This document shows positions 4,456 to 22,025 of a DNA stretch of 64,000 nucleotides, piece after piece (positions within the stretch are counted from its first letter, which is position 1; each line of letters begins with the position of its first letter). Under the pieces are notes generated by a model. It ran no database searches. It was given only the letters and a program-made list of their open reading frames with translations, and was not told the DNA's origin. A program made the position numbers and the translations under genes. The stretch comes from Nitrospira sp. CR1.2 (GTDB lineage: Bacteria > Nitrospirota > Nitrospiria > Nitrospirales > Nitrospiraceae): contig WIAG01000013.1 of NCBI GenBank assembly GCA_014055495.1, positions 1 to 64,000 on the forward strand, read 5' to 3'.

Positions 4456-6399
4456 CTATCCCTGTGCCACCGGCACGTCGGCGACCAGCAAGTCTTTCAA
4501 GCGCCCCAACGCCTCTGCCACGATGCGGCCTTGGGCGTCGATGTTGGCGATGATCTCGACCGGCGTGCGCTGATCGACCACGGTCACCGCATTCGGATTG
4601 ACCGCCTTGAGGTCGAACACCGCCGCATCGATAGCAGCCGCCTGCGATTCAAGATCTCGTGCGGCCTTGTCCTTCTCACGAATCTGAGCCTCCAGCGCCG
4701 CGATCGCCTTCGTACCGGCTTTATTTTTCTTGAGGCGCTTCAGCCGCTCCTTGAGATCCACCACCTCGGCCTTGATCTTGGCCGCCCCATCCAGCAACGG
4801 CTGCATCTCGTCGCGCGCCTTCACGCGGCGGGCGGCGAAGTCCACCGTCCAGGAGTAGCGGCTTTCGCCTTTCGGCGTCCCTCGCTGCGGAAGAAGGCGG
4901 GCATAGCTGGGAAACCGTGTGCCGCTGGATGCCTCGTCAGCCTGCCACTCTGCCACCAGTGAAGCGGGCAGGGCCGCATCGTCCACTATCGTCCCGTTTG
5001 GGACAAAGCCAAAATGCGCCAGCGTCAGCGGCGTCTTCTTGCCCACCTTCACCGGCGAGAGATCGTAGTACCAGATCCGTGTGGTCTTCTTGCCTTTTGT
5101 GAAAAACAACAAATTCGTCTTGACGCCCGCACCAGCCGTGGAAAACACGCCACCAGGCAGGCTGACGATGGCCCAGAGATCGCACTCGTCTACCAGCTTG
5201 CGCTTGGTCTCCACGAAAGCGCTCTCATTGGTGCGAAAGAGCAGCCCTTCGTCCAGCACCATGGCGCAGGTCCCGCCGGGAGCCAGCTCTGCCAAGATAT
5301 CCTGCAGGAACAGCACCTGCGTGGCGCTGGTTTCGAAGGCGAAATTCTTTTGCGCGTCCTTCCCTTCTTTGCCGCCGAAGGGCGGATTGGTCAGGATCAC
5401 GTTGAACTGCCTAGGCGCTTGCTCGAACAGCGCCGCATAGGTGGCCCGCTTCGTCAGCGCGTTGCCGTGCCACAGGTTGGGCCGATCGATGCCGTGTAAG
5501 ACCAGATTGGCCAGCGCGATAGGAAAAACCAGGTTCTCCTTTTCTCGGCCGAAGAAGGTCTCGTGCTTCAACCGGTCAAGATCGGTGCTGGCTGGGCTCT
5601 TGCCCAACTTGCGCGCGATATGCTCGTAGGCGATGGCTAAAAACCCGCCGGTGCCGCAGCAGGGGTCATAGACCGTCTGCCCCAACGACGGGTCCACGGT
5701 ATGAACCATCGCACGGATCACCTCGCGCGGTGTGAAGAACTGGCCACCGTCGGAATTCTTTTCACCCATCTTCAACAGCAGATCTTCGTAGACCTGCGAC
5801 AGGGTGAAGAAGTGCTGGTCGTCCAAGTGGTCGATGCTGATCTCGTCCACCTTGTCGAGAATGTCGCGCAGGTTGGATTCCGAATCCACCCGCACCCGCT
5901 CCACCGCCGTCATGATACGGCCGATGATGCGTTGCTTCGGGGTAGCCCCGCTGCGGGGCAGGTTGGTGCGCGGGTCCACGTCCAGACTATGCAAATGCGG
6001 CAGCAGGTCTTTGTTGATGAAGTCGAACAGCTTGCCGTCCCCCGCCGCGAATAACGCCTGCCGCTTCCAACCAAAGAGTTTGCCTTCCGGCGTCTTTGGA
6101 TGGTTCTGCTTGTTCGCCTCGTTCCTGGGCGGCGGCGCAGCCCAGTCCTGCCAACGGTAGGGGCTCCGCAAGGCTGGCGTGAAGCTTGCGCCCACCGCCT
6201 CGGCTGCTTCCTGATCGCGCGCCTCCTGCGCGTCGAGGATGCGCAGGAACAGAATCCAGGTCAGCTCCGGCACATATTGCAGGGCGCTCGCGCAGTTGGA
6301 ACGGCGCATCACGTCGCAAATGCTCTTGACGAAGGCCGACAGCGATTGCGTGGAGGCGATGGCCTTGGGTGGTTGTGCAGTGCGTTTCCGGCCGGCCAT
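4456..6399 (-). CDS. hsdM: Type I restriction-modification DNA methyltransferase subunit HsdM
   Basis: 647 residues. The N-terminal helical HsdM domain (SLSAFVKSICDVMRRSNCA) is followed by the N6-adenine methyltransferase domain: DGGQFFTPREVIRAMV, the AdoMet motif DPCCGTGGFLAIAYEH, and the catalytic motif IV NPPFGGKEGKD. The C-terminal third has a coiled coil (LKERLKRLKKNKAGTKAI) of the kind that contacts HsdS. Together with HsdS it would methylate adenine in a bipartite target. It is the last gene of a five-gene operon; its ATG lies 2 bp after the stop of the upstream nuclease gene, so translation is probably coupled. Length is normal and no motif is missing. Confidence 0.95.
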   Translation of the reverse strand: MAGRKRTAQPPKAIASTQSLSAFVKSICDVMRRSNCASALQYVPELTWILFLRILDAQEARDQEAAEAVGASFTPALRSPYRWQDWAAPPPRNEANKQNHPKTPEGKLFGWKRQALFAAGDGKLFDFINKDLLPHLHSLDVDPRTNLPRSGATPKQRIIGRIMTAVERVRVDSESNLRDILDKVDEISIDHLDDQHFFTLSQVYEDLLLKMGEKNSDGGQFFTPREVIRAMVHTVDPSLGQTVYDPCCGTGGFLAIAYEHIARKLGKSPASTDLDRLKHETFFGREKENLVFPIALANLVLHGIDRPNLWHGNALTKRATYAALFEQAPRQFNVILTNPPFGGKEGKDAQKNFAFETSATQVLFLQDILAELAPGGTCAMVLDEGLLFRTNESAFVETKRKLVDECDLWAIVSLPGGVFSTAGAGVKTNLLFFTKGKKTTRIWYYDLSPVKVGKKTPLTLAHFGFVPNGTIVDDAALPASLVAEWQADEASSGTRFPSYARLLPQRGTPKGESRYSWTVDFAARRVKARDEMQPLLDGAAKIKAEVVDLKERLKRLKKNKAGTKAIAALEAQIREKDKAARDLESQAAAIDAAVFDLKAVNPNAVTVVDQRTPVEIIANIDAQGRIVAEALGRLKDLLVADVPVAQG

Positions 6400-6401
6400 G
6401 T

Positions 6402-7415
6402 TCAGTCGGTATCCCCATTTTCTGTGTGTGTGTTTTGCAGATAAAACTCATGCAGCTTCGCCCGCAGCAAGGCTTTGTCCGGCAGTTGGGTCTGGTATTC
6501 GGCGATCAGCGCGGGCGAGGTGCTGCGGCTCAGGGCGTATTCGACCACCTCGTCGTCTTTGCTCGCGCACAACAACAGACCGATGGCCGGGCGTTCGTGC
6601 GACTTCTTCACGTCCCGGTCCAGGGCTTCCAGATAGAAATTCAGCTTGCCCAGGTATTCCGGCTCGAAGCGTCCGACTTTCAGTTCGATGGCCACCAGGC
6701 TGTTCAAGCCGCGATGGAAGAACAACAGGTCCAGCGCGAAATCGCGCCCACCGACCTGCACCGGATATTCGCTGCCCACAAAACAGAAATCGCGCCCCAG
6801 CTCGATCAAGAAATCCTTGAGCCGTAAGAGCAGGCCGCGATGCAGGTCGGTTTCGGCATGGCCCTGGGGAAGATCAAGGAACTCGATCAGATAACTGTCC
6901 TTGAAGACGCTGGCCGCTTCCGGGTGCGCGTCTGACAGCACAGCCGACACCTTTGCCGGTGCCAGCACCGTACGCTCGAACAGCGCCGCCTTGCACTGGC
7001 GCTCCAGCTGCCGTTTGCTCCACTTTTCCTGTACCGCCAGACGCACATAGAACGCTTGTTCCTCCGCCCGCTTGCTCTGGTTCAGGATGATGAGGTGATG
7101 CGTCCACGGCAATTGTGTCACCAGTGGTGACACTAATTCATTGCCCGCATAGGCCTCATAGAATTGCCGCATTCTGAACAGGTTTCGGCGGGTAAACCCG
7201 CGCAGTCCCGGTTGCGTCTGGGCCAGATAGCGGGCCAGTTGATCCACCACGCCATCGCCCCATTCCGAGGCGGCGATTTTACGGCTGATGTGTTCGCCGA
7301 TCTGCCAATACAACTCGATCAGCGTGGTATTGACCGCCTGCACGGCACGTTCCCGGGCCGTGGCGATCAGTTGCGCGATGTCGGCAAAATCGGGAGGTTG
7401 CGGCGTGGTGGTCAT
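6402..7415 (-). CDS. DUF1016 (YhcG-like) PDDEXK nuclease domain protein
   Basis: 337 residues. The N-terminal DUF1016 helical domain is clear (LIELYWQIGEHISRKI, GFTRRNLFRMRQFYEAY, LPWTHHLIILNQ). The C-terminal PDDEXK half contains FALDLLFFHRGLNSLVAIEL followed by K, where D and the E-x-K form the expected metal-binding nuclease residues, then FEPEYLGKLNFYLEALD. The ATG at 7415 overlaps the hsdS stop by the four bases ATGA, which decides the start. The family is often embedded in restriction or other defence loci and is proposed to cleave DNA or form part of a nuclease complex. Here it sits between hsdS and hsdM, so a role inside the type I system is likely but not proven. Confidence 0.88.
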   Translation of the reverse strand: MTTTPQPPDFADIAQLIATARERAVQAVNTTLIELYWQIGEHISRKIAASEWGDGVVDQLARYLAQTQPGLRGFTRRNLFRMRQFYEAYAGNELVSPLVTQLPWTHHLIILNQSKRAEEQAFYVRLAVQEKWSKRQLERQCKAALFERTVLAPAKVSAVLSDAHPEAASVFKDSYLIEFLDLPQGHAETDLHRGLLLRLKDFLIELGRDFCFVGSEYPVQVGGRDFALDLLFFHRGLNSLVAIELKVGRFEPEYLGKLNFYLEALDRDVKKSHERPAIGLLLCASKDDEVVEYALSRSTSPALIAEYQTQLPDKALLRAKLHEFYLQNTHTENGDTD

Positions 7416-8608
7416 GACCTCGCACCCACGTTGTTGAAGGTTTGCGAAAGGAGGTGTTGCGGGAGACGTTCGATCTCGGCCAATTGCGCGGTAACCGATT
7501 GGGCCATGTTGTCGGTTTCGTCGAGTTGGGATTTCAAACGAGCAACGATGTGGCATTGGTCGTCCAGCGGTGGCAGTAAAATCGGAATGGATGCGATGAC
7601 GTCTTGAGAGATATTCCGCATCGAGTCGCTGGTTCCAGTGGCGTAGAGCTCAATGTGCTCACGCGCCAACTCTGTGCGCAGCGCGAGTAGCAAATAATCC
7701 TTGTTGGCACGGCTTTCATCCACGACGAGACGCAAAGTTTTGTCCGACAGCAGGCGCATCGGATAGTCGCGTTCGACGAGCACAACAGCCCCAACAAGTT
7801 CGCGCGTATTGGCACGTGAAATGAGCAAGTCACCTTGCTTGACTCGGTGATTTTCGGCAGGCGTGTATTCGCCCTTCAAAGCTTTAGCCTGGTCGGCACG
7901 GAACTGCGACCACGAAACGGCACTGACCTTCAACACGCCAAGTTCGTCGGGACGCGCTAACACCTCTGCGGTCAGGAAGCTCTTGCCTGTCTGGATTTCA
8001 TTCAAGACGCAGCCAAGCGTCAATGGTTCGCAGACCAGTTGATGGAAAGCGGCTTGCAGTAAGCGGCGTTGCAACAGGGCAGCATCTCGCAACTGCGCCC
8101 TCGCCGCCTGGCGCGCGGCGTCCACTTCAGCCAATTGGGCTTTCAGGCGGGCGGCGACGCGGCGTTGTTCGTCAAGGGAGTCAGGGATGGTGACCTCAAG
8201 GCGCAGTAGAGCATCCACGTCGGCTCTGGGCATGCGGGAGCCCGTCTTCTCGGCCATTGCGCCATTAATGACGCGATCGGTGCGAAGCAGGAAAGCGAGG
8301 AAGCTACGATCTACACCAGTAGGCAGTAATGGAATGATCTCTGTAGAGCATCGCCCATCTCGGTCGGGAGTGGCGACCTTGTTTAAGTAGGGGCGCAACT
8401 TACCGTAGAGAATATGCCGCTCATCAAAAGCGAAGGTCGTGCTCTTCCCTTCAGCCGGGTTGCCGTCGTAGTTCAGAATTCGGCCAGTTCCGGCTTCGAT
8501 CTGTTCGAGACCGAGGTACGGCCGCTCAGACTTAGCCGGTGAATCGGGCCCGATAATCTGCCGGTGCGCAACGGCTATATTAGCCAGTCGGATAGTACGC
8601 CAACTCAT
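7412..8608 (-). CDS. hsdS: Type I restriction-modification specificity subunit HsdS
   Basis: 398 residues with the two-fold HsdS plan. Target-recognition domain 1 spans ~1-135, with the helical spacer DEQRRVAARLKAQLAEVDAA after it. Domain 2 follows from ~180 and ends in a second spacer DDQCHIVARLKSQLDETDNM. The repeated L-D-x-Q/E-x-x-I/V-x-x-R-L-K phrase marks both conserved regions. It would direct HsdM and HsdR to a bipartite DNA sequence; the sequence itself cannot be predicted by eye. The ATG overlaps the hsdR stop by ATGA, and its own stop overlaps the next start the same way, indicating translational coupling across three genes. Confidence 0.93.
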   Translation of the reverse strand: MSWRTIRLANIAVAHRQIIGPDSPAKSERPYLGLEQIEAGTGRILNYDGNPAEGKSTTFAFDERHILYGKLRPYLNKVATPDRDGRCSTEIIPLLPTGVDRSFLAFLLRTDRVINGAMAEKTGSRMPRADVDALLRLEVTIPDSLDEQRRVAARLKAQLAEVDAARQAARAQLRDAALLQRRLLQAAFHQLVCEPLTLGCVLNEIQTGKSFLTAEVLARPDELGVLKVSAVSWSQFRADQAKALKGEYTPAENHRVKQGDLLISRANTRELVGAVVLVERDYPMRLLSDKTLRLVVDESRANKDYLLLALRTELAREHIELYATGTSDSMRNISQDVIASIPILLPPLDDQCHIVARLKSQLDETDNMAQSVTAQLAEIERLPQHLLSQTFNNVGARS

Positions 8609-11022
8609 ACCCCAAACAACCTTCCCTTCGCCTCACGCATCACGTCCATCGGTCTGCCTAGCGCGCGCAGCGCATCGAGTCCGCCAGCGAGCCTGATCTC
8701 CGGCACTTCCCACAGGGCCGGAGTTTCCAGCGCATCGGTGCCGCCTGCGGCGAACTGGTGACCCAACCCCTTGAGCACAGTGCCGGCTTGAGGGTCCATG
8801 TCGGCAAACCAGGACTGGTTGCCGCTGATGTACAGATCGCCGCGTTCCGGGCGCTTCAATGCTCGGGCATGGTAGCCGTGGTGGCCGAAAAAGTCGTAGA
8901 GGTCGAAGTCGGTCATCCGGTCGATTTCCCGGATGACCTCCGGGCTAAAATTATCGCTCAACAGATGATCTATGAGGCTCCGCCGCTTCTGGGTTTCAAT
9001 CCAGAGCGTGCGGAACTCGTCGAGGTTGTGCGCTTCCGACAAGACGCGCTGGATCATCTCGCGACGGTAGTCGTCCACGGGAATTGGCAGGTCGCGCCCC
9101 TCGCGGCAGGTGAGAATGAAACGGCCCTGCGGGTACACGATGACGCGCTGCCCGCCGATCTCTCCCACGGCCGGGCCCTCGCCCTCGCCGCCACCACCAG
9201 GTCCTTCACAACCGCCCTTCCCCCCGCCACCAGGTCGCGGCGGCTTCGAGATGAACTCCGCGCCGAACAGGCTGGTGACGCCGGTGTAGTCGTAGAGCCA
9301 GAACTTGTACTTCTGCGTGTCCTCGTGGATGCGCGTGCCGCGGCCGACCATCTGGTAGAACTTGATGGGCGACTGTAGATAACGAAAGAACACCACGGCG
9401 TTCAGACGCTCGATGTCTACCCCGGCTTCCAGCAAATCCACGGTACAGGCGATGAACGCGCGTTCGCTTGATCCGCGCATCGGTTCGATGAGGTCGGCTC
9501 CGTTGTTGGCGCCGCCCATACACTTGAAGGCGTAATGGTCCTTGGGTTCCTGCCCCTTCTCCCGACACCAGCGTACGTAAAAGTTGTTCATGTGCTGCGC
9601 GACGCGGTCGGCGTGGATCTCGCGGGTGCAGAAGATGATGACCTTTTGTTCGGGCCCGCCGTTCTCGCACAGCAGTGTGAACAGGTCAGCGCACATCTTG
9701 GGCGTGCGCAGCTCGATGAACAGCTCGTCGTCGAAGTCCTTGCCGGCATAGGTGTCCTTGGTGAGGTCGGCATCGGTCAAGGGCTTGCCGGTCTTGATGT
9801 CCTTGGCACCGGCGTTGAGTACTTCTTCCTTCGTGAATGTGGCGCTGTCGATGCTGGCCTTCCGCTTCACAATTTCGCAGGCGGCCAGGTAGCCGTCTTC
9901 CTGAGCCTGGATCAACGTGTATTCATAGACCGGCTCGCCGAAGTACTTGCGATTGTTGGCGGTGATGTCCTGGTCTTCCTTGCTGGTCTTGTCCGACTCC
10001 TCCAGTTTACGCGGAGTGGCCGTCAGACCGATATGGATGGCATTGGGGTTGCGCCGCAGCACTTCCGACCAGCGGCCCCAGGCTGAACGATGGCATTCGT
10101 CAATGATGATGACGCTGAAGGCATCCTGGCCGTAGTGCTCGGTGAGGAAGCTGGCGAAACCGTCATCGGTCGGATCGCCGTCGTCCAACCCTAGAGTTTG
10201 ATAGGTGGCAATATGGATGCGGGCGTTCCTGGCCGCGTTCTGACCCCCCTCCGTTTCGACGATACGGGCATTGGCCCCGAATGCCGCGCTGAGCTTGTTG
10301 TAGGCCTGGGTGCGCAGTTCATCTCGATCGCATAAGAACAAGGCGGGTTTCGGTAGCTGCCCGGCCTGCGAGAGGCGCCACAAAAGATTCGTAGCAATGA
10401 TCGTCTTGCCGGCTCCTGTCGCGAGCGTGAGCAGCACACGCGGAGGCTTGCCGGCCTGCCCATCGCGCAGGAGTTTCGTACATGCCGCACGGATGGCCGC
10501 ATCTTGATAATAGCGGCTCTGCGACCAGGCGGGGCTGTCGGCCTGAAACAGCATGGCGGCTTCGGGTCTGGTCAGGTCGATGCCGTTGTCTTTGGCGTAC
10601 CGTGCCGTAAGATCCGGATGCGCGGGAAAGTCGCTGAACTGAAATGGACCGTTGATCAATTTCGTGAAGCGGTCATACTCGCCATACCGGTGGCCGTTGG
10701 TGGCAAAGACGTACTTTACGTTGAAGCGCAGCGTGTCGGCATATCCGCGAGCTTGTTGCATGCCCTTGAGCGGATCGTCGCCCTCCTTTTTCGCCTCCAG
10801 CAGAGCCACCGGCATGGCTTTGGGCATCTCGCCGACCTGAACACACAGCAGGTAGTCCGTGCGCCCAGGCCCCTTACGCCTGCACCCCTTGGAGCCAATC
10901 GGTTCAACGGGTGGTGGAGTGAGCACGGTTTCCAACGTGATGCACTCGCGGCTGACGTAGCCCTTTTCACGCAAGACGGGATCGATGAGGTGGTAGCGGG
11001 TATCCGCCTCGTTCATGCTCAT
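8605..11022 (-). CDS. hsdR: Type I restriction enzyme endonuclease/translocase subunit HsdR (EcoEI-like)
   Basis: 805 residues from the ATG at 11022, which follows GGGAGGGG; an open frame extends upstream but lacks family similarity. The N-terminal nuclease domain shows DYLLCVQVG and VALLEAKKEG (D...E-x-K). The SF2 translocase has LTLATGAGKTIIATNLLWRL (Walker A), IIIDECHRSAWG (motif II), HIGLTATPRK (motif III) and YQMVGRGTRIHED (motif VI). The C-terminal part (REMIQRVLSEAHNLDEFRTL) resembles the EcoEI R C-terminal domain. A Gly-rich linker lies between the helicase and C-terminal parts. It would translocate DNA and cut unmodified foreign DNA with HsdS and HsdM. All key motifs are intact. Confidence 0.95.
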   Translation of the reverse strand: MSMNEADTRYHLIDPVLREKGYVSRECITLETVLTPPPVEPIGSKGCRRKGPGRTDYLLCVQVGEMPKAMPVALLEAKKEGDDPLKGMQQARGYADTLRFNVKYVFATNGHRYGEYDRFTKLINGPFQFSDFPAHPDLTARYAKDNGIDLTRPEAAMLFQADSPAWSQSRYYQDAAIRAACTKLLRDGQAGKPPRVLLTLATGAGKTIIATNLLWRLSQAGQLPKPALFLCDRDELRTQAYNKLSAAFGANARIVETEGGQNAARNARIHIATYQTLGLDDGDPTDDGFASFLTEHYGQDAFSVIIIDECHRSAWGRWSEVLRRNPNAIHIGLTATPRKLEESDKTSKEDQDITANNRKYFGEPVYEYTLIQAQEDGYLAACEIVKRKASIDSATFTKEEVLNAGAKDIKTGKPLTDADLTKDTYAGKDFDDELFIELRTPKMCADLFTLLCENGGPEQKVIIFCTREIHADRVAQHMNNFYVRWCREKGQEPKDHYAFKCMGGANNGADLIEPMRGSSERAFIACTVDLLEAGVDIERLNAVVFFRYLQSPIKFYQMVGRGTRIHEDTQKYKFWLYDYTGVTSLFGAEFISKPPRPGGGGKGGCEGPGGGGEGEGPAVGEIGGQRVIVYPQGRFILTCREGRDLPIPVDDYRREMIQRVLSEAHNLDEFRTLWIETQKRRSLIDHLLSDNFSPEVIREIDRMTDFDLYDFFGHHGYHARALKRPERGDLYISGNQSWFADMDPQAGTVLKGLGHQFAAGGTDALETPALWEVPEIRLAGGLDALRALGRPMDVMREAKGRLFGV

Positions 11023-11191
11023 GCGGCCCCTCCCGGAACCTCGACCGTTGGCTTTTCTGATGCGTCTATCGACCAAGATCCAACGTCTGCGGCCGATAGA
11101 ACACGTTGATTCATGAGGCCTGTACCGGCATATCGCCCAGCCACTATCACCCACCTCTCGTCGATACGGCGCTTGTTGTCCGATAACCTGT

Positions 11192-12829
11192 TCATGACAC
11201 CGCCCAGTAGCGCCGCCAACGTTTGTCACCCTCGTAGCGGACGGCGCCTCGATCAATCAGCTGATCCAACGCGCGCTTGATCTGCTTAGAGTGGATCTCG
11301 GCGCCCACGCGCCGATGGATCTCGCTGACGGCAGATTGCGGGTACCGCTGCAGGTCTTCGAGCACTAGCGCGGCCAATCGATGGGGCTCGATCCGCTTGA
11401 GCGTGGTCGGCCCGGCGAATTCCAGGCCTCGCAGCAAGCCCGGATCGACAAAGTAGCGTGTGGCCTGAGTGCGCCCCGAGCTTTGCACGAGGTGCCAATC
11501 CAGCAGGCGCTTGAGCCAGGGTTGCAGTGCTTCGACCGATGGCAGTTCAAGGGTGGTTGCCAACTCGCGAGCGGTCAGGGCGTCGTGCTGTGCCAGCAAG
11601 CCCAGGGCAATGCGTTCGCGCTGGGTGAGCTGATACGTCAAGTCAGCCTTGGCCATGAAGTCGATGACTTCCGGCTTGAGGATACGGCGGCGCACGGTGA
11701 CTTGAACGCGGTCATGGGTTTCGATGAGCTCCGGCGTCGGGCGGCCTTGCGAGAGCAACACCTCAAAGATCTTGTCGAAGCCACTACCTTCGCGTTCCAT
11801 CAGCTTCAGGTCGTGGAACAGGCGTGCCAGATGCTCGTTGCGACGAACCGTCATGTGCAGCACGTTCTGCGGCGTCACGCCCAGCGGCAGCGGGCCGGGG
11901 TTGACCATTTCCAGCCGGTCTGGGTGCAGATTCAAATAGATGTCACCGCGCTGGGTGTACGGGCGATGCACGAGGGCATTGACCAATAGTTCACGCACCA
12001 CGATTTCATCGAAAGCGGGCACGTTTTGGCGGTACAGGCCGTCGGGCAGTTCATAGCGTTCACGAAAGTCTGGGACCTCCTGCCAAACCGCCTCGATCAG
12101 CTCCATCGGATTGAGCGTGTGATCGTCCCAGACCAGCTTGTTGACCTTTTGACCGTGCTCATCGTACTTGATGAACTGGATCACCGGCGCCGTAGTGAGT
12201 TGGGCACGGTGATGCTGACAACCACAGCAGAGCACGCCCAGGTTGGTGAGGGTCAGCCCTTGTGCGAGCTGATAGTGGTCGAGCAGTTCGTCGTCGGACT
12301 TCTCCTTGACTGAGGCTTTGACGCGGTCGGATGAGCGCAAAGCCTGCAGCAGCTTGTCGCATTTGGCAGCATCGATCTCACCGCGAGGAATCCGCAGGGT
12401 GGTCTGCGTTTCCCACGGCAACGCGGAACGCTCGCTGGCGAGCCGCATCACGTCATCGCCGGTGACGGGCTTGTTCTGATCGGCCACGCGCAGGAAGTAG
12501 CGACCGTCCGTGGTGGAGGCCACCGCCATGGTGCGGGGAATGCGCAACTCAATGTACTGCCCGCCATTCTGGGCGGTGACGACATCCGGCAGCACGGCAA
12601 CATTGACGGTGCGCTCGGCCAACTTGCGTCGAACGGTGTCAGGCAGGTCGGCGGGGATGCGCTGGTCGGCAGGAGGCTGCTCCTGATCATCTTCTATTCC
12701 GAGCAACAGTCGGCCGCCTGTTGCATTGGCAAAGGCGATGCAATCTTTGGCGATTTCGTTCCAGTCCGTCGTCTTACCGGTAACCGCCCGAATGGATTTG
12801 CGGTCGACCTCTTGACCTTCCAGGCTCAA
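11192..12829 (-). CDS. AlbA_2 (Schlafen-type) domain ATP-binding protein heading the restriction operon
   Basis: 545 residues. The N-terminus is an AlbA_2/Schlafen domain (WNEIAKDCIAFANATGGRLL then LGIEDD). A middle GHKL-like region carries EIVVRELLVNALVHRPYTQR and MEREGSGFDKIFEVLLSQGR, typical of the C-terminal part of these putative transcriptional regulators or helicase-annotated proteins. The end is winged-helix-like (SAVSEIHRRVGAEIHSKQIK). The start is a TTG at 12829: an in-frame TGA lies 15 bp upstream, no ATG is available, and GAGGG lies about nine bases before it. It is the first gene of the operon; a 169-bp gap separates it from hsdR. It could regulate the system or act in defence; which is unknown. 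Confidence 0.82.
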   Translation of the reverse strand: MSLEGQEVDRKSIRAVTGKTTDWNEIAKDCIAFANATGGRLLLGIEDDQEQPPADQRIPADLPDTVRRKLAERTVNVAVLPDVVTAQNGGQYIELRIPRTMAVASTTDGRYFLRVADQNKPVTGDDVMRLASERSALPWETQTTLRIPRGEIDAAKCDKLLQALRSSDRVKASVKEKSDDELLDHYQLAQGLTLTNLGVLCCGCQHHRAQLTTAPVIQFIKYDEHGQKVNKLVWDDHTLNPMELIEAVWQEVPDFRERYELPDGLYRQNVPAFDEIVVRELLVNALVHRPYTQRGDIYLNLHPDRLEMVNPGPLPLGVTPQNVLHMTVRRNEHLARLFHDLKLMEREGSGFDKIFEVLLSQGRPTPELIETHDRVQVTVRRRILKPEVIDFMAKADLTYQLTQRERIALGLLAQHDALTARELATTLELPSVEALQPWLKRLLDWHLVQSSGRTQATRYFVDPGLLRGLEFAGPTTLKRIEPHRLAALVLEDLQRYPQSAVSEIHRRVGAEIHSKQIKRALDQLIDRGAVRYEGDKRWRRYWAVS

Positions 12830-16274: not shown

Positions 16275-17327
16275 TTAATCTGTCAAACACTCCTCTCCAA
16301 CAACATATTTACCGTTGAGCCAATCTAATAGTTCTTGAGAAAATCGATCACTGCTCAAGGCCTGTATGATTTCCTTCTTCTTACCTTCGTCAATCTTATC
16401 AAGTCCCATTTCCAGGAATGCCTTTTGGTCTCTTCTCAACAAGAGTTCCAGCCCATCTCCAGCTAACTTTGCCACCATTCGATGGAAGGATTCTTCAGCA
16501 TTGACTCCGCCGGTCAACGTTTCGACTGAGGACGCAAAAACTATTTCAGAGAGGCTCGGTTGATTCATCAAGTTAAACGCCCAGCCGTTTGAATGTCGAA
16601 AGGCATTGCGAGTTCGACCGTCGAGATGTTTCAACTTTAGAAATTTGCATTGCCTTGGGCCGTCGTTTGCAAAGTAGTTATCCCAAACCAATGGCCTGCG
16701 CTTCAGCACCCTGGCCACCTCATTCAGCTCTTCAACTGAAATTGATTCAGGGAGAACCTTGCGCCCCGTCCAAAAAATTTGAATGTCCTTCGAAAGATTT
16801 CCAATCCGTTCCAAATACCCGTCTGGTCGCTGGCCGAAAATCCTGTCGAGGAGCGGGTCGTGCGAGTAATAAGTCGGACAGAACAGAATAGTTGTGTTCG
16901 TGATATCTCTTACGTACTCAACGATTTCGACCTGCTTGTCCGCCAAGTCGGCGACCCCTCGCATGTCATCGAATAACAAACCAAGAAATCGAATGTTGAG
17001 TTCTTCGAGACTCTCAACTTTATCCCTCAGCAGTGTTTTGGTCTGTTGATTCCACTCTGCGTGAATCTCAAATGGACTGAGCCCCACGCCGAATGCCACT
17101 TCACTCCGATGACAAATTGAGCTCAGACTGTGCATTTCTTTCCACAGTCTATCGGAATGAGTCTGTTTCCAGTTTTTTCGTAAGAACGTATCTCGCTTAG
17201 GAGCATAGAGATAAAAATCGCCCCCGTAGGCAGGAAGGGATTCACAAAATCGATATCGGCTGTTCCATGACCACTCCGGCCCGAAGAAACCTTCAACAAC
17301 TCCAATTCCAAACATGTCGTCGCTCAC
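16275..17327 (-). CDS. GH84-type beta-N-acetylglucosaminidase (O-GlcNAcase-like)
   Basis: 350 residues. The N-terminus FGIGVVEGFFGPEWSW, then YGGDFYLYAPKRDTFLRKNW, matches the GH84 (hyaluronidase/O-GlcNAcase) barrel. FLGLLFDDMRGVADL holds the adjacent Asp-Asp pair that is catalytic in GH84 by substrate-assisted hydrolysis. LVWDNYFANDG and FNLMNQPSLSEI also fit. A GTG at 17327 with AGAGG six bases upstream is the best start; an ATG follows at 17315. The C-terminal ~70 residues are helical and unassigned. No signal peptide is seen, so it would act in the cytoplasm. The gene is clearly AT-richer than its neighbours and lies beside ssrA, suggesting transfer. Family assignment is good; substrate is unknown. 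Confidence 0.8.
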   Translation of the reverse strand: MSDDMFGIGVVEGFFGPEWSWNSRYRFCESLPAYGGDFYLYAPKRDTFLRKNWKQTHSDRLWKEMHSLSSICHRSEVAFGVGLSPFEIHAEWNQQTKTLLRDKVESLEELNIRFLGLLFDDMRGVADLADKQVEIVEYVRDITNTTILFCPTYYSHDPLLDRIFGQRPDGYLERIGNLSKDIQIFWTGRKVLPESISVEELNEVARVLKRRPLVWDNYFANDGPRQCKFLKLKHLDGRTRNAFRHSNGWAFNLMNQPSLSEIVFASSVETLTGGVNAEESFHRMVAKLAGDGLELLLRRDQKAFLEMGLDKIDEGKKKEIIQALSSDRFSQELLDWLNGKYVVGEECLTD

Positions 17328-17735: not shown

Positions 17736-18086
17736 TGGTGGAGGCGAGGGGAGTTGAACCCCTGTCCGAAGATCGTCGGCACATCGCATCTACATGTGTA
17801 GCCGATTCTTTACGCTTCGCAGCGACCCACGCCTATCGGCCGGCTTAGAATCACCGCTAGCCCAGTATTGTCTCGCCCCCCGCCGCTGAGCACCGGCGCG
17901 GGACCAGTCCGCTGCATCGCGCCATTCCACCCCCGCGGACCTCAGATGGAACGACGTCTCAGCCTAAATTAGGCTGCGAGTGCCAGTTCTTGGTTGGCAG
18001 TTGCGTTTTTCCCGGAATTTTACGAGTTCCCGAGATCTCGACATGCAACGATGGCGTCAATATCCCCGTCGAAACCGGTCGCCCCC
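17736..18086 (-). ncRNA. ssrA: tmRNA (ssrA), tag peptide ATANQELALAA
   Basis: 351 nt. The 5' end GGGGGCGACCGGTTTCGACG is the classic one-piece tmRNA start; its first eight bases pair with TCGCCTCC before A-CCA at the 3' end. The T-arm GGTTCAACTCCCC and the alanine-type acceptor are intact and CCA is encoded. The resume codon GCA is at 18004 and the reading frame gives ATANQELALAA before TAA at 17971-17969, with the stop inside a small hairpin. The RNA rescues stalled ribosomes with SmpB, encoded at 52624. A long palindromic repeat begins 5 bp upstream of the 5' end. Confidence 0.96.
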
Positions 18087-18090
18087 TAAT

Positions 18091-18214
18091 CAGAATGTTG
18101 ATAAAGGCCTCCAGCTTTGTTCTCGCATCGCTCAGCACCTCGACCTACTGACTAGTAGGCCTCGGTCCTTCGCTCGCTGCGGCCTCGCTGAGAGGCCTTT
18201 CTGTGAACATTCTG
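18091..18214. repeat. Palindromic intergenic repeat, copy 1 (upstream of ssrA)
   Basis: 124-bp imperfect inverted repeat. Outer arms are CAGAATGTTGATAAAGGCCT and, on the other side, AGGCCTTTCTGTGAACATTC; the centre is CCTACTGACTAGTAGG. The half TCGCTGCGGCCTCGCTGAG is shared in form with the copies at 45368 and 56729. It sits between the tmRNA 5' end and the stop codon of the HTH-GHKL gene and would fold into one long hairpin. Confidence 0.8.
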
Positions 18215-18242
18215 GAAGACATCCACTGTGTTCTAGATGCTC

Positions 18243-18248
18243 ATCATA
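18243..18248 (-). promoter_or_regulatory. ssrA: Possible -10 box for ssrA upstream of the palindromic repeat
   Basis: TATGAT on the minus strand, 17 bp after a weak TGGCAT. No good -10 is seen in the few bases directly before the mature tmRNA. If this is the promoter, the precursor carries the whole palindromic repeat as a 5' leader that RNase P must remove. Weak, by eye only. Confidence 0.25.
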
Positions 18249-18305
18249 CCGCATGGGTCAAGGGGATGCCAGCACGCGAAGTCAGTTTGACACAGGCCCC
18301 AGCGA

Positions 18306-19352
18306 TCAAATTGGCAATTCTGTCTGTCCTTGATGGGACCGCGCTCTTTGAATCATTTTTGAAACGTCTGGAGTGACATGCACAGGAATGAGTTTTATTG
18401 AGGGATGACCGTTGGCAAATACTCTAAAAATTTCGTCGGCAAATGCTTGGCCAATTTCCGTCACATCTTTGAAGTCGAGATACACCTCCTTACATTTCTC
18501 AAGTCGATTTAAGATACGCTTCGCTTGAGAACGCGAGACCAGATAGTCCCCTTCGTACTTAGCTAACTGAACAGACAGATGCGTCTTACTGAAGCCAAAA
18601 TCATCAAGATCGGCAGTGAATTTATCAAAAACCTCCTTTGTGGTCTTATTGGAATCTAAGTAAAGGACCATCGTAACCCTGGTACCTGGGCCAACCTCCT
18701 CTTCTTTAACATCAAAAAGCCATTCGTCACCTTCTTGGAAACGGCAGAAGGTCAGCTTATCGGAGGCAAGGATAAATTTGTCGAACATGCGAGAAGTAAA
18801 AAAGATACCCTCGCCTGTATGCCTTCTAGGGTCAGTCGTTAACTTTCCCTTTGTGAGCTCCAACAGCGCATGTCTCGGGTCGTCTAGCTGGAATGCCAGC
18901 TGCAGTTTTTTCCAGATTCCAATACCATAGTCTTGGATCACTATTCGGACGACCAAAGCATCCATCGTGATACTGACATCAGCTAACTGCGACTCAGAAT
19001 GGTCGATAACGTTGTTAAACATTTCCGTAAATCCACAATGACAAATCGCGCGTACGTTTCCTCTCTGATCCGCCAAGAGGGATGCAATGGATTCATTCCA
19101 AATTTTATCTTCTTGTGTCTCCCGTCCAATCGGGACACTGATCCGCAACTCTTTCTGAACTACGAGCCTATAGGGATGTTGCAACGAGTCCGTTTTTCGC
19201 ACTACACCGGCTTTCACCAATTCTTTTAAATTTTTGAATACGGCTTGGCGGGTCACACCAAAGGTCTTAGCAATCTCGATCGGAGAGATTTTCCCCAGAT
19301 CATCGACCTTTTCCAATATAAGTCTCCGGATTTCTTTTGTTTTTCTTTGCAT
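18306..19352 (-). CDS. HTH - GHKL ATPase - DUF4325 (STAS-like) fusion protein
   Basis: 348 residues. Residues ~1-60 form a winged HTH (ISPIEIAKTFGVTRQAVFKN). Residues ~95-220 resemble a GHKL/HATPase fold: CGFTEMFNNVIDHSES (N box) and IVIQDYGIGIWKKL (G1 box), with GEGIFFTSRMFD (G2). The C-terminus SRSQAKRILNRLEKCKEVYL then IGQAFADEIFRVFA matches the DUF4325 STAS-like family. No signal peptide; cytoplasmic. It has no recognisable ribosome-binding site, and a promoter ends 5 bp before the ATG. It is AT-richer than most neighbours. The architecture suggests a kinase/anti-sigma-like switch combined with DNA binding; the target is unknown. Confidence 0.75.
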   Translation of the reverse strand: MQRKTKEIRRLILEKVDDLGKISPIEIAKTFGVTRQAVFKNLKELVKAGVVRKTDSLQHPYRLVVQKELRISVPIGRETQEDKIWNESIASLLADQRGNVRAICHCGFTEMFNNVIDHSESQLADVSITMDALVVRIVIQDYGIGIWKKLQLAFQLDDPRHALLELTKGKLTTDPRRHTGEGIFFTSRMFDKFILASDKLTFCRFQEGDEWLFDVKEEEVGPGTRVTMVLYLDSNKTTKEVFDKFTADLDDFGFSKTHLSVQLAKYEGDYLVSRSQAKRILNRLEKCKEVYLDFKDVTEIGQAFADEIFRVFANGHPSIKLIPVHVTPDVSKMIQRARSHQGQTELPI

Positions 19353-19357
19353 GACCA

Positions 19358-19388
19358 ATGTTAACTTTTAATCCCAATATGTCAACTT
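19358..19388 (-). promoter_or_regulatory. Promoter with paired AAGTTGACA-type repeats, possibly giving a leaderless transcript
   Basis: On the minus strand TTGACA (19385-19380), a 16-bp spacer and TAACAT (19363-19358) form a near-consensus promoter whose start point would fall at or within a few bases of the ATG at 19352. The elements AAGTTGACA and AAGTTAACA are direct repeats 21 bp apart, about two helical turns, a plausible autoregulatory operator for the HTH protein they precede. Confidence 0.55.
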
Positions 19389-19408
19389 TTTAACACAGAA
19401 ACGTAAAC

Positions 19409-20386
19409 CTAAAAAGTTGTATCTGTCAACTTCTTAATAGCACTACTTGCCAGATTGTTCCTCCGCTCTACCGGATACTTTCGCTCCCGCCAGGCGTCGA
19501 GGCCGCCCTCCAGCGGGCGCACACGATGGATACCCTTCTTTTTCAACAGGAACGCTGTCCTGGCGCTGGACACTTCATTGGGGCAGGTGCAGTAGAGCAC
19601 GATGTCGCGGTCGCGCGGGATTTCATGATGGCGATGTTCGATCTCTTCCAACGCGAAATTGATGGCGCCGGGAATGCTGTCCGGATCGAGCTGAACCGAC
19701 AGGGGATGCCGCACATCCACCACACTGATCGCCTCGCCTGCGTCCAGTCGCTGCTTGAGTTCCTCCACGGAGATCTTCGACATGCGTAGATGCCTCAAGA
19801 ACTTCTGCCGGTGATAAAACTTATTGCCGATGAATCCCGCCAGCCCGACGACCAACAACATGAGCAGCAACCCGCCGCCCTGGTCGAACAGGCCGACGAG
19901 TTGTTCGAGTTGATTACTGAAGAGGGCCCCGACTCCCGCACTCACCCCGGCCCAGATGAGGGTGCCGGCCACGTCGTACAGGATAAACGTGAGCGCACTC
20001 ATGCCGACGATCCCGGCCAGCGGGGGCGCCACGGTACTGAAGCCAGGGATAAACTTCGCCAGCAGCAGCGCGCGGGGACCGTTCCGATGAAACAGATTCT
20101 CCGTGTCCCGCACGCAAGAGTCCGGTTCCAGCGACAGCCGGCAAAGGAAGCCGAGTACCTTTCCTCCCTTGAACCGCCCCAGGTAGTACCAGGCGACATC
20201 CGGCGGCAATGACGCGGCCACCGGCACGAGGAGCGCCGCAGCCACCGACATTTTCCCGGCCCCCACGAGGGCCCCGGCAGCAATCAGCAGGGGAATGGCC
20301 GGAATGGGAAAGCCGATCTGCTCGGCCAAGATCACCCAGAAGAGCACCCCCGCCCCATGGTCGGCCAGGAATTGAAAGGTGGACAC
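19409..20386 (-). CDS. DedA-family membrane protein fused to a C-terminal rhodanese domain
   Basis: 325 residues. The GTG start at 20386 follows GAGGGGGG; the longer frame overlaps the upstream gene. Residues 1-200 are a DedA/SNARE-associated membrane domain (AEQIGFPIPAIPLLIAAGAL, LLAKFIPGFSTVAPPLAG). A basic linker leads to a rhodanese domain (SVVDVRHPLSVQLDPDSIPG) with the active-site Cys in DIVLYCTCPNEVSSARTA. DedA proteins act in membrane lipid flipping and envelope stress; the rhodanese part handles sulfane sulfur. The rhodanese faces the cytoplasm by prediction. The gene is 17 bp after the BT1-type transporter gene, suggesting co-transcription. What links the two domains is unknown. Confidence 0.88.
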   Translation of the reverse strand: MSTFQFLADHGAGVLFWVILAEQIGFPIPAIPLLIAAGALVGAGKMSVAAALLVPVAASLPPDVAWYYLGRFKGGKVLGFLCRLSLEPDSCVRDTENLFHRNGPRALLLAKFIPGFSTVAPPLAGIVGMSALTFILYDVAGTLIWAGVSAGVGALFSNQLEQLVGLFDQGGGLLLMLLVVGLAGFIGNKFYHRQKFLRHLRMSKISVEELKQRLDAGEAISVVDVRHPLSVQLDPDSIPGAINFALEEIEHRHHEIPRDRDIVLYCTCPNEVSSARTAFLLKKKGIHRVRPLEGGLDAWRERKYPVERRNNLASSAIKKLTDTTF

Positions 20387-20402
20387 CGTTCCCCCCTCTT
20401 GG

Positions 20403-22025
20403 TCAGGCGCTCCGGAATCGCGAGAAGCGGGTGAACAGGATCGCCGCGAAGGGCAACGCCAGACCAAGCAGGGTCTGGACGATCAACAACATGCCCAACT
20501 GACTATAGTCATCGGGTGACTGAATCGCGTTGGTGACCGGATCGCGTACCTCCCGGGTCACCGCGAACCACTCGTTGAGATATTTCGTCCCGAGTTGGCT
20601 GAGCGACAAGGCGAGATTCGTGAACGAGGCCATCACGGCAAAATACGTGGCTTTGAGATTGGCCGGCGCAGAGTTCGCAATCCAGGCCAGCATGGGAATC
20701 ATGGAGATCTGGCCCAGGGGCGATTCGAGCGCCGTATTCACCAAGGCGATAAACCGCGCATCGACCAGGCCGCCGGTCAACGCCGCCGTCCACTCGTGAA
20801 GCCCGTAATACATGCTGACGATGGGAAGCCCCAGCACAAAGGCCGCCACCGTGAGGAAGCCCACCACATAGGCGATAGACCGTTCAGCCATGAACCGGCG
20901 AAAGAGAAACATGCCCCCCAGCGTCAAGGCGCTGCCGATCAGCGACAAGACCGACAGAAACTGCTGGTCGAACTTGAGCTGGTCGATCATCCACCAGGTC
21001 GCACCTTCACCGGGTCCCGGCACCGCACGAAATACGAATACGACCAGGGCAGTGCCCACGAGCACATGTCTGGCCTGAGGTTCCAGTTCACGGGTTAAAC
21101 GCACCATCAGTACCGTCACGATGGCCATGGAGCCGGCAAAGACGATTTCTTCGCTGTACGGGAAGTCCGCCACGCCGACCGTCAGGGTAAACAACACGAA
21201 GGCCAGGCTCCCGCCAAGAATCCACCAATTGGGTTTGGCCGGCTCCGCAGGCCGGTCCAACAGCGCCGCAATCTGGCCCGGCGTCAGCCCTTGGCTGAGG
21301 TACCGATGTGTCGCGCGCACGCGCAGGATCGAGGCGGTGATCACGCCGAGGACCGACACAGCCGGAATCGTCAACGCGAGCAGATATACCTGTTGATAGA
21401 TCTCCGCAACCTTGTCCTTCGGCAGGTTCTCGACACCCGTAAACAGATACAGATTGATCAGGGAGACCAGGATGCCGCCGCCGATGATCGCCACACGCCC
21501 GAGCGTCTGCATCGTGGTATGCATGAGTTTCAGCGTGCCTTCATCGATCGGGTGCCCCCGTTCGTCCACCCGCGGAACCGCCTCGACGGTCATGGCGTCG
21601 GCCACCGTGTCTTGAATCACGTAGCCGATCGGCGCCAACAACACGCTGAGCACGTACCAGACCTCCGCCGGCATCACCGCCACCATCGCCTCACGATGCC
21701 CGATCAGCCCGACCATGATCAACAGACTCGCCGCAATCACCCCGGCCCCAACATAGACGAGCAGACTTTTCCATCGCCAGAGCAGGTCGACCAGATGCCC
21801 GAACGGCATTTTTAGCGCCCAAGGAATACCGGCCCAGAACCCCAGCGCAGCTAGAAAAGCCGCTGAGAGGCCAAGATAGTCTTTCACGAAGAAGGTGCCC
21901 ACGATGCCCGTGAGCCCGGAAATGCCGGCGGCCATGTAGACCATGAGCGGCGGGAGGTAGGACAGTTGGAAGTCGCGCACGAGTTCCAGAATATTGCGAT
22001 CGATCCAATCAGAGAGCGCACGCAT
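20403..22025 (-). CDS. BT1/MFS-type membrane transporter
   Basis: 540 residues from the ATG at 22025; GGAGG lies 12 bases upstream. About 12-14 membrane segments. The N-terminal block FQLSYLPPLMVYMAAGISGL, then FWAGIPWALKMPFGHLVDL, resembles the folate/biopterin transporter (BT1) branch of the MFS, but the substrate in bacteria is generally not established. It has a cytoplasmic loop with TPGQIAALLDRPAEPAKPN in the middle. It precedes the DedA-rhodanese gene by 17 bp in the same orientation. A GC-rich hairpin lies just upstream of its start. Inner-membrane carrier; function unknown. Confidence 0.7.
   Translation of the reverse strand: MRALSDWIDRNILELVRDFQLSYLPPLMVYMAAGISGLTGIVGTFFVKDYLGLSAAFLAALGFWAGIPWALKMPFGHLVDLLWRWKSLLVYVGAGVIAASLLIMVGLIGHREAMVAVMPAEVWYVLSVLLAPIGYVIQDTVADAMTVEAVPRVDERGHPIDEGTLKLMHTTMQTLGRVAIIGGGILVSLINLYLFTGVENLPKDKVAEIYQQVYLLALTIPAVSVLGVITASILRVRATHRYLSQGLTPGQIAALLDRPAEPAKPNWWILGGSLAFVLFTLTVGVADFPYSEEIVFAGSMAIVTVLMVRLTRELEPQARHVLVGTALVVFVFRAVPGPGEGATWWMIDQLKFDQQFLSVLSLIGSALTLGGMFLFRRFMAERSIAYVVGFLTVAAFVLGLPIVSMYYGLHEWTAALTGGLVDARFIALVNTALESPLGQISMIPMLAWIANSAPANLKATYFAVMASFTNLALSLSQLGTKYLNEWFAVTREVRDPVTNAIQSPDDYSQLGMLLIVQTLLGLALPFAAILFTRFSRFRSA

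Follow-up and report, generated by a model that had tools for sequence, protein, structure and literature searches.

A winged-helix, GHKL and DUF4325 protein of Nitrospira and the phased repeat array, its likely operator, at its own promoter

In Nitrospira sp. CR1.2, a gene lying between ssrA and a VTT-rhodanese gene encodes a protein, P0001, with a winged-helix (wHTH) head, a GHKL ATP-binding domain and a DUF4325 tail, and is preceded by a row of phased repeats that covers its own promoter region. The candidate operator accompanies the gene across orthologues and is almost restricted to it in the genomes searched, as expected of an autoregulator. We consider it probable that P0001 binds this array cooperatively, most likely as a repressor, and that it is released through an ATP- and signal-dependent change in its GHKL and STAS-like domains. 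Throughout the text, the window is the whole stretch of 64,000 nucleotides that was analyzed.

Results and discussion

P0001 joins a winged helix to a SpoIIAB/RsbW-like domain and a possible STAS fold

The gene occupies positions 18306 to 19352 of the window and encodes 348 amino acids. Its strand, not given in the preliminary description, is the minus strand, with the ATG at 19352 and the stop codon ending at 18306; close orthologues start at the identical position or at most two codons from it. The N-terminus matches MarR_2 and MarR above the Pfam cut-offs, with the best MarR and wHTH stretches lying within residues 8 to 56. DUF4325 (PF14213) is found at residues 276 to 330 (52.7 bits, curated cut-off 23) and HATPase_c_2 at residues 106 to 195 with 20.5 bits, which is below its curated cut-off of 27.4. 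We compared an AlphaFold2 model of the protein (mean pLDDT 78) by Foldseek and VIA-align. Residues 64 to 235, approximately, match SpoIIAB, RsbW and UsfX with Z scores of 12 to 13, and residues 252 to 341 match RsbS with a Z score of 7.4, in a range that the tool calls middling; the pLDDT over residues 251 to 348 runs from 44 to 85. The Pfam domains and the matches of the model bear out the three-part architecture first proposed, namely a helix-turn-helix, a histidine-kinase-like ATPase and a STAS-like tail. A sequence search of the PDB with P0001 returned wHTH and GHKL matches, and no STAS protein was recognized among the best 60 of 115.

The ATP-site boxes E110xxxN114, D141xG143xG145 and H178xGEG, and with them residues E110, N113, N114, D141, G143, G145, H178 and G180-G182, are invariant in all 20 aligned members of the family. 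The E-x-x-x-N box resembles that of SpoIIAB. By its fold and its ATP-site boxes, the modeled domain belongs to the GHKL domains of the SpoIIAB-RsbW kind, and it may have serine kinase activity on a STAS partner. The tail may adopt a STAS fold, and within it S273-R274-S275 and G301-Q302-x-F304 are invariant in the same 20 members. The canonical phospho-acceptor serine of STAS proteins is absent from it: at the place where we presume it to lie, from the motifs of SpoIIAA and RsbS, 20 out of 20 members read G-Q-[AG]-F. It is therefore unlikely that P0001 phosphorylates its own tail. The earlier idea of a one-protein switch is still plausible, but the tail lacks this serine.

P0001 thus resembles SpoIIAB and RsbW with their partners SpoIIAA, RsbV and RsbS in its GHKL fold and in the possible STAS fold of its tail. 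It differs from them in that these parts follow a wHTH within a single polypeptide, as well as in the missing serine. With MarR-like autorepressors it shares the wHTH head and the pattern of self-control, whereas it carries a GHKL-STAS body instead of the MarR dimer domain and faces direct repeats (spaced by 21 to 22 bp, and by 23 and 11 bp in the subfamily B described below) instead of one palindrome. Direct repeats are unusual for a MarR-like dimer.

Four phased repeats precede the gene and recur across its family

Four repeats with a GTTNAC core, spaced by 22, 22 and 21 bp, lie on the minus strand upstream of P0001. Repeat 1 (core GTTGAC, AAGTTGACA; 19425 to 19430) falls within the 3' end of the upstream open reading frame and holds the -35 box of a promoter candidate that is conserved among orthologues; repeat 2 (core GTTTAC; 19403 to 19408) overlaps the -10 box of the same candidate. 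Repeat 3 (core GTTGAC, AAGTTGACA; 19381 to 19386, whole element 19388 to 19380) and repeat 4 (core GTTAAC, AAGTTAACA; 19360 to 19365, whole element 19367 to 19359) hold the -35 and overlap the -10, respectively, of the promoter proposed in the preliminary description. The pair AAGTTGACA/AAGTTAACA, 21 bp apart over both boxes of that promoter, had been reported exactly; the array to which it belongs has four repeats, two of which had been missed. Since the spacing is 21 to 22 bp, the four sites would share one face of the helix.

The pattern AAGTTNACN{11,16}AAGTTNAC has a single match in the 4.06 Mb genome, at the P0001 promoter, and none in the reversed control. With the looser pattern GTTNACN{13,17}GTTNAC we obtained 17 matches in the genome and 21 in the reversed control, which is the chance level for single pairs; three of the 17 are overlapping pairs at the P0001 promoter, that is, the four consecutive repeats. 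Our search for a regulon in this genome therefore returned no second array and single pairs only at the chance level, and single sites may still occur.

The same four repeats in the same register precede five further orthologues (L002, L003, L011, L012 and L023; 68 to 84% identical). When the upstream regions of the six are aligned, nearly all invariant columns fall within the four cores and their flanks, and the DNA between them mostly differs. Two of the orthologues, L003 and L023, depart from the core at repeat 4, with GTTTGC and GTTTCC, respectively.

To cover the family more widely, we used 54 homologues from Nitrospirota, other bacterial MAGs and IMG/VR contigs. Before counting we dropped L010 (on a contig shared with L003), L021 and L022 (remnants), L039-L041 (fragments or weak matches), L079 and L080 (DUF4325 only), and L073 and L078 (upstream region too short), and we left out the window's own cluster (L001, L003 and L011), which gave 28 usable clusters at 75% identity. 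In the 120 nt upstream of these clusters we counted 53 TTKACR on the coding strand and six on the other, with means of 5.7 and 5.4 and maxima of 12 and 13 in 500 shuffles. Phased pairs, defined as TTKACR spaced by 10 to 12 or 20 to 24 bp, are found upstream of 17 of the 28 clusters (shuffle mean 0.08, maximum 2) and of none of 309 control ORFs taken from the same loci, a set in which many ORFs may be spurious; with the TTKAC core the count is 19 of 28. The spacing itself is strikingly regular. Among 40 consecutive TTKAC spacings, taken from 29 clusters including that of the window, 21 are exactly 22 bp, 30 lie between 21 and 23 bp, and 37 are at most 1 bp from 11, 22, 33 or 44 bp, the remaining three being 6, 9 and 16 bp. 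Clusters of subfamily B show the spacings of 23 and 11 bp. Phased TTKACR pairs were not found upstream of L009, L023, L024, L029, L060, L069, L071, L072, L074, L076 and L077; the TTKAC core adds a pair in L023 and L074, and allowing TTAAC adds L024. For L069, L071 and L076, 99 to 108 of the 120 nt tested fall in an open in-frame extension, so that these are weak negatives in which the true promoter was possibly missed. The array recurs before homologues in other genomes and phyla, and its conservation upstream of orthologues supports the self-control that had been proposed from the window.

The array is also nearly confined to the gene. In 20 Nitrospirota genomes selected for holding it (15 with subfamily B and five with subfamily A), 22 out of 23 matches to the array patterns lie at the gene's own promoter. 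These are 15 of the 16 matches of the subfamily B pattern, the other one being in G210, and all seven matches of the subfamily A pattern; both controls gave zero. Because the arrays of its relatives sit almost only at their own promoters in the genomes searched, P0001 has the appearance of a switch made of one gene and acting mainly on itself. The family is patchy, with matches in 32 of 395 Nitrospirota genomes (an even draw from a larger group, with fragments and weak matches included). The genome of CR1.2 has one DUF4325 (PF14213) match, and plasmid and phage collections gave no match at an E-value of 1e-5.

The gene lies in a variable slot beside ssrA

Downstream of P0001, the next gene is ssrA (tmRNA; 17736 to 18086, minus strand), which runs in the same direction. 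Upstream lies a gene coding for a VTT domain and a rhodanese (19409 to 20467, minus strand). In Nitrospira the slot between these two borders contains one of two distant DUF4325 subfamilies (approximately 35% identical and in opposite orientations), remnants, or neither. We searched 29 genomes of the genus. An intact homologue is present in 11 of them (three of subfamily A and eight of subfamily B), always upstream of ssrA, and the remnants in two others have the same position; in G008 the neighboring copy of ssrA is partial. Subfamily A has the same direction as ssrA and subfamily B the opposite one. Among the 16 genomes that do not have the gene, seven have a VTT gene upstream of ssrA within a stretch of at most 1.5 kb, the closest at 97 bp; four have no VTT in the stretch fetched, which is very short in two of them, and a further five could not be judged. 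The slot therefore appears to have gained, lost and swapped its gene repeatedly. Outside the genus, L032 is the only one of the loci examined for tmRNA that has one in view.

Several further features deserve mention in their own right. The window contains a multi-copy repeat upstream of ssrA (18091 to 18203), of which the genome has 17 other, partial matches (70 to 89% identity). The block at 18236 to 18272, also upstream of ssrA, was considered as an interspersed repeat and rejected, since no second copy occurs in the genome even with three mismatches allowed; a similar form is found upstream of ssrA in other Nitrospira, and it is possibly the ssrA promoter region. The protein encoded at 16275 to 17351 matches beta-N-acetylglucosaminidase (PF07555) well above the cut-off, which is unexpected in Nitrospira. 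G008, a single-contig genome, has two partial ssrA matches far apart (C1:1571332-1571617 and C1:2752181-2752361).

We found no recurrent partner of the gene. A downstream ORF is visible in 30 clusters, and in eight of these a same-strand ORF lies at most 100 bp away, with no product shared beyond near-identical loci, in a scan of crude ORF calls of at least 80 amino acids that misses smaller genes. PADLOC, run on eight neighbors in the window, detected a type I restriction-modification locus that is 7 to 14 kb away and hence not adjacent. This locus (4456 to 11256) comprises the M, S and R genes and, between M and S, a gene of the PDC-S02 type. The neighbors of homologues elsewhere are mixed and include, in two sets of 10 hand-picked proteins, phage integrase, recombinase, PIN, HTH_3, PDDEXK_1, RecG-like, RexB-like and PDC-S12 proteins. 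Elsewhere, homologues adjoin a RexB-like gene and a candidate defense gene of the PDC-S12 kind (L005:2047-2517 and L006:209-907).

Likeness to CapK/CapS is partial

The closest known systems are CapK/CapS and VapK/VapS, which a recent report describes as kinase and STAS proteins that respond to DNA damage (EMBO J 2026, PMC13373217). According to this report, control takes place through two proteins after DNA damage, with activation by single-stranded DNA or DNA damage; CapS represses its own promoter, and an immune operon is adjacent to 348 of 443 capKS loci (PMC13373217). P0001 could then be the one-polypeptide counterpart, a fused kinase, STAS and wHTH triggered by DNA damage and directed at a partner or at its own promoter. 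Both have HTH, STAS (or STAS-like) and GHKL parts and a resemblance to anti-sigma kinases, and P0001 probably shares the self-control of the promoter. However, two proteins there stand against one chain here, and the domain order is HTH-STAS-GHKL and STAS-wHTH there and wHTH-GHKL-STAS here. The CapK/CapS operator consists of TTAA palindromes instead of phased direct repeats, and CapS has the phospho-serine whose position is replaced in the P0001 family. Moreover, the gene that follows P0001 is ssrA rather than a STAS-wHTH gene such as capS, and no immune operon adjoins it. For its domain order, its operator, the replaced serine and the lack of an adjoining immune operon we did not file P0001 as CapK or CapS, and we regard a direct counterpart as rather unlikely.

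The conserved promoter candidate coincides with repeats 1 and 2

The promoter TTGACA-16-TAACAT of the preliminary description, which had taken it to imply a likely leaderless translation, lies at 19358 to 19385 of the minus strand (-35 at 19385 to 19380, -10 at 19363 to 19358). This sequence, which corresponds to repeats 3 and 4, does end exactly 5 bp before the ATG, and in a consensus scan it is the sole sigma-70-like match within 19300 to 19520 (10/12; shuffles mean 0.3). The ribosome site is, as stated, not visible: none of the Shine-Dalgarno-like words in the list searched occurs in the 25 nt before the start in five of six orthologues, window included. In this reading, transcription would start at the ATG from a leaderless promoter that P0001 itself occludes. 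We scanned the 110 nt upstream of the six orthologues, window included, for promoters with a spacer of 16 to 18 bp and a score of at least 8/12. TTGAC[AG]-17/18-TACNNT was found at repeats 1 and 2 in six out of six (scores of 9, 10, 8, 8, 10 and 10 out of 12) and is the best or joint best match in the five orthologues other than the window. The version in the window, TTGACA-18-TACGTT (19400 to 19429, minus strand), scores 9/12 and fell under the threshold that the consensus scan applied. In contrast, a pair at repeats 3 and 4 was found in two of the six: in the window, where it is the best match, and in L002 (TTTACA-17-TACAGT, 9/12, ending 6 nt before the L002 start). No such pair of at least 8/12 was found in L003, L011, L012 and L023. 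Leaderless translation is therefore doubtful, and we consider a promoter that starts transcription at the ATG unlikely. Given its presence in all six orthologues, we place the conserved promoter at repeats 1 and 2, from which a start would leave a leader of approximately 40 nt holding repeats 3 and 4. Both promoters may work in the window, where the downstream one scores one better.

The same binding could in principle activate the gene, alone or in addition to repressing it, with positive feedback and a bistable switch as the outcome and with repeats 1 and 2 as promoter sites and repeats 3 and 4 as tuning sites. Sites on one helix face fit either sign, and four of them permit graded effects. 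However, in all six orthologues the likely -35 and -10 boxes fall on repeats 1 and 2, and repeats 3 and 4 lie downstream, which is the usual place for repression, while activators usually bind upstream of the -35 box. We therefore hold self-activation to be quite improbable and retain repression as the probable sign.

The recognition helix co-occurs with the array

At least two TTKACR repeats are found in 16 of the 17 clusters with an [ST]RQ[AT] recognition helix and in two of the 11 with another or no wHTH (P-value 7e-5, Fisher test), a label that was picked after the data had been viewed. The same division holds for phased pairs, with 15/17 versus 2/11 clusters for TTKACR, 17/17 versus 2/11 for TTKAC and 17/17 versus 3/11 for TTDAC. 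L072, which has no wHTH, and L009, with a HipA_C-like head, have no array, whereas L004 and L066 have arrays and no [ST]RQ[AT] helix, as does L024 if TTAAC is allowed. In L009 (3626 to 4630, from a Desantisbacteria MAG) the HipA_C-like N-terminal part is in frame with GHKL-DUF4325, in either a real fusion or an assembly error. On a tree of the other domains the association between helix and array is not significant (two of three independent contrasts agree in most pairings, median P-value 0.5), and with three such contrasts the test is unable to reach significance.

These data suggest that P0001 likely binds its own array. Part of the array signal could be promoter signal, since TTGACA/TTTACA resembles a -35 box, and the phasing of 11 and 22 bp is hard to explain in this way. 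That another regulator binds the repeats, or that these are only multiple -35 boxes, in either case unrelated to P0001, would agree with this resemblance, with the overlap of the window's array with two possible promoters and with the result on the tree, but it is very improbable because the array tracks the gene family across phyla, hardly occurs at other places in the genomes that were searched and has a phasing unexpected for stacked -35 boxes.

Conclusions

From the composition of the protein and the arrangement of its putative operator, we infer the following course of events. The N-terminal winged helix, through its [ST]RQ[AT] recognition helix, would bind the row of TT(G/T)AC cores that covers its own promoter, probably cooperatively, and would repress its own transcription. 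Upon ATP and a signal, perhaps DNA damage by analogy with CapK, the SpoIIAB/RsbW-like and STAS-like domains would most likely alter the self-association of the protein, which would then leave the promoter and let its own level rise. A wider interpretation, which we put forward only tentatively, is that of a stand-alone and probably horizontally spread one-gene switch, in which a repressor is joined to an anti-sigma-type ATPase and STAS module and has its own promoter as the only arrayed target. A signal would then cause a burst of protein that acts on a partner, perhaps after DNA damage, and the family would be a fused, self-only branch of control of the CapK/CapS type.

Pfam lists no function for DUF4325, and the name is found in 2 of 5.39 million papers searched, both times as a table entry; among the titles listed, no paper on the wHTH-GHKL-DUF4325 architecture was recognized. 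The phased operator makes both self-binding and its dependence on ATP testable with one DNA of approximately 100 bp and one protein. If self-binding is true, P0001 would be a one-polypeptide version of the control by kinase, STAS protein and repressor, of a kind recently shown to switch immune operons, and one would have to ask why its regulation hardly extends beyond its own gene.
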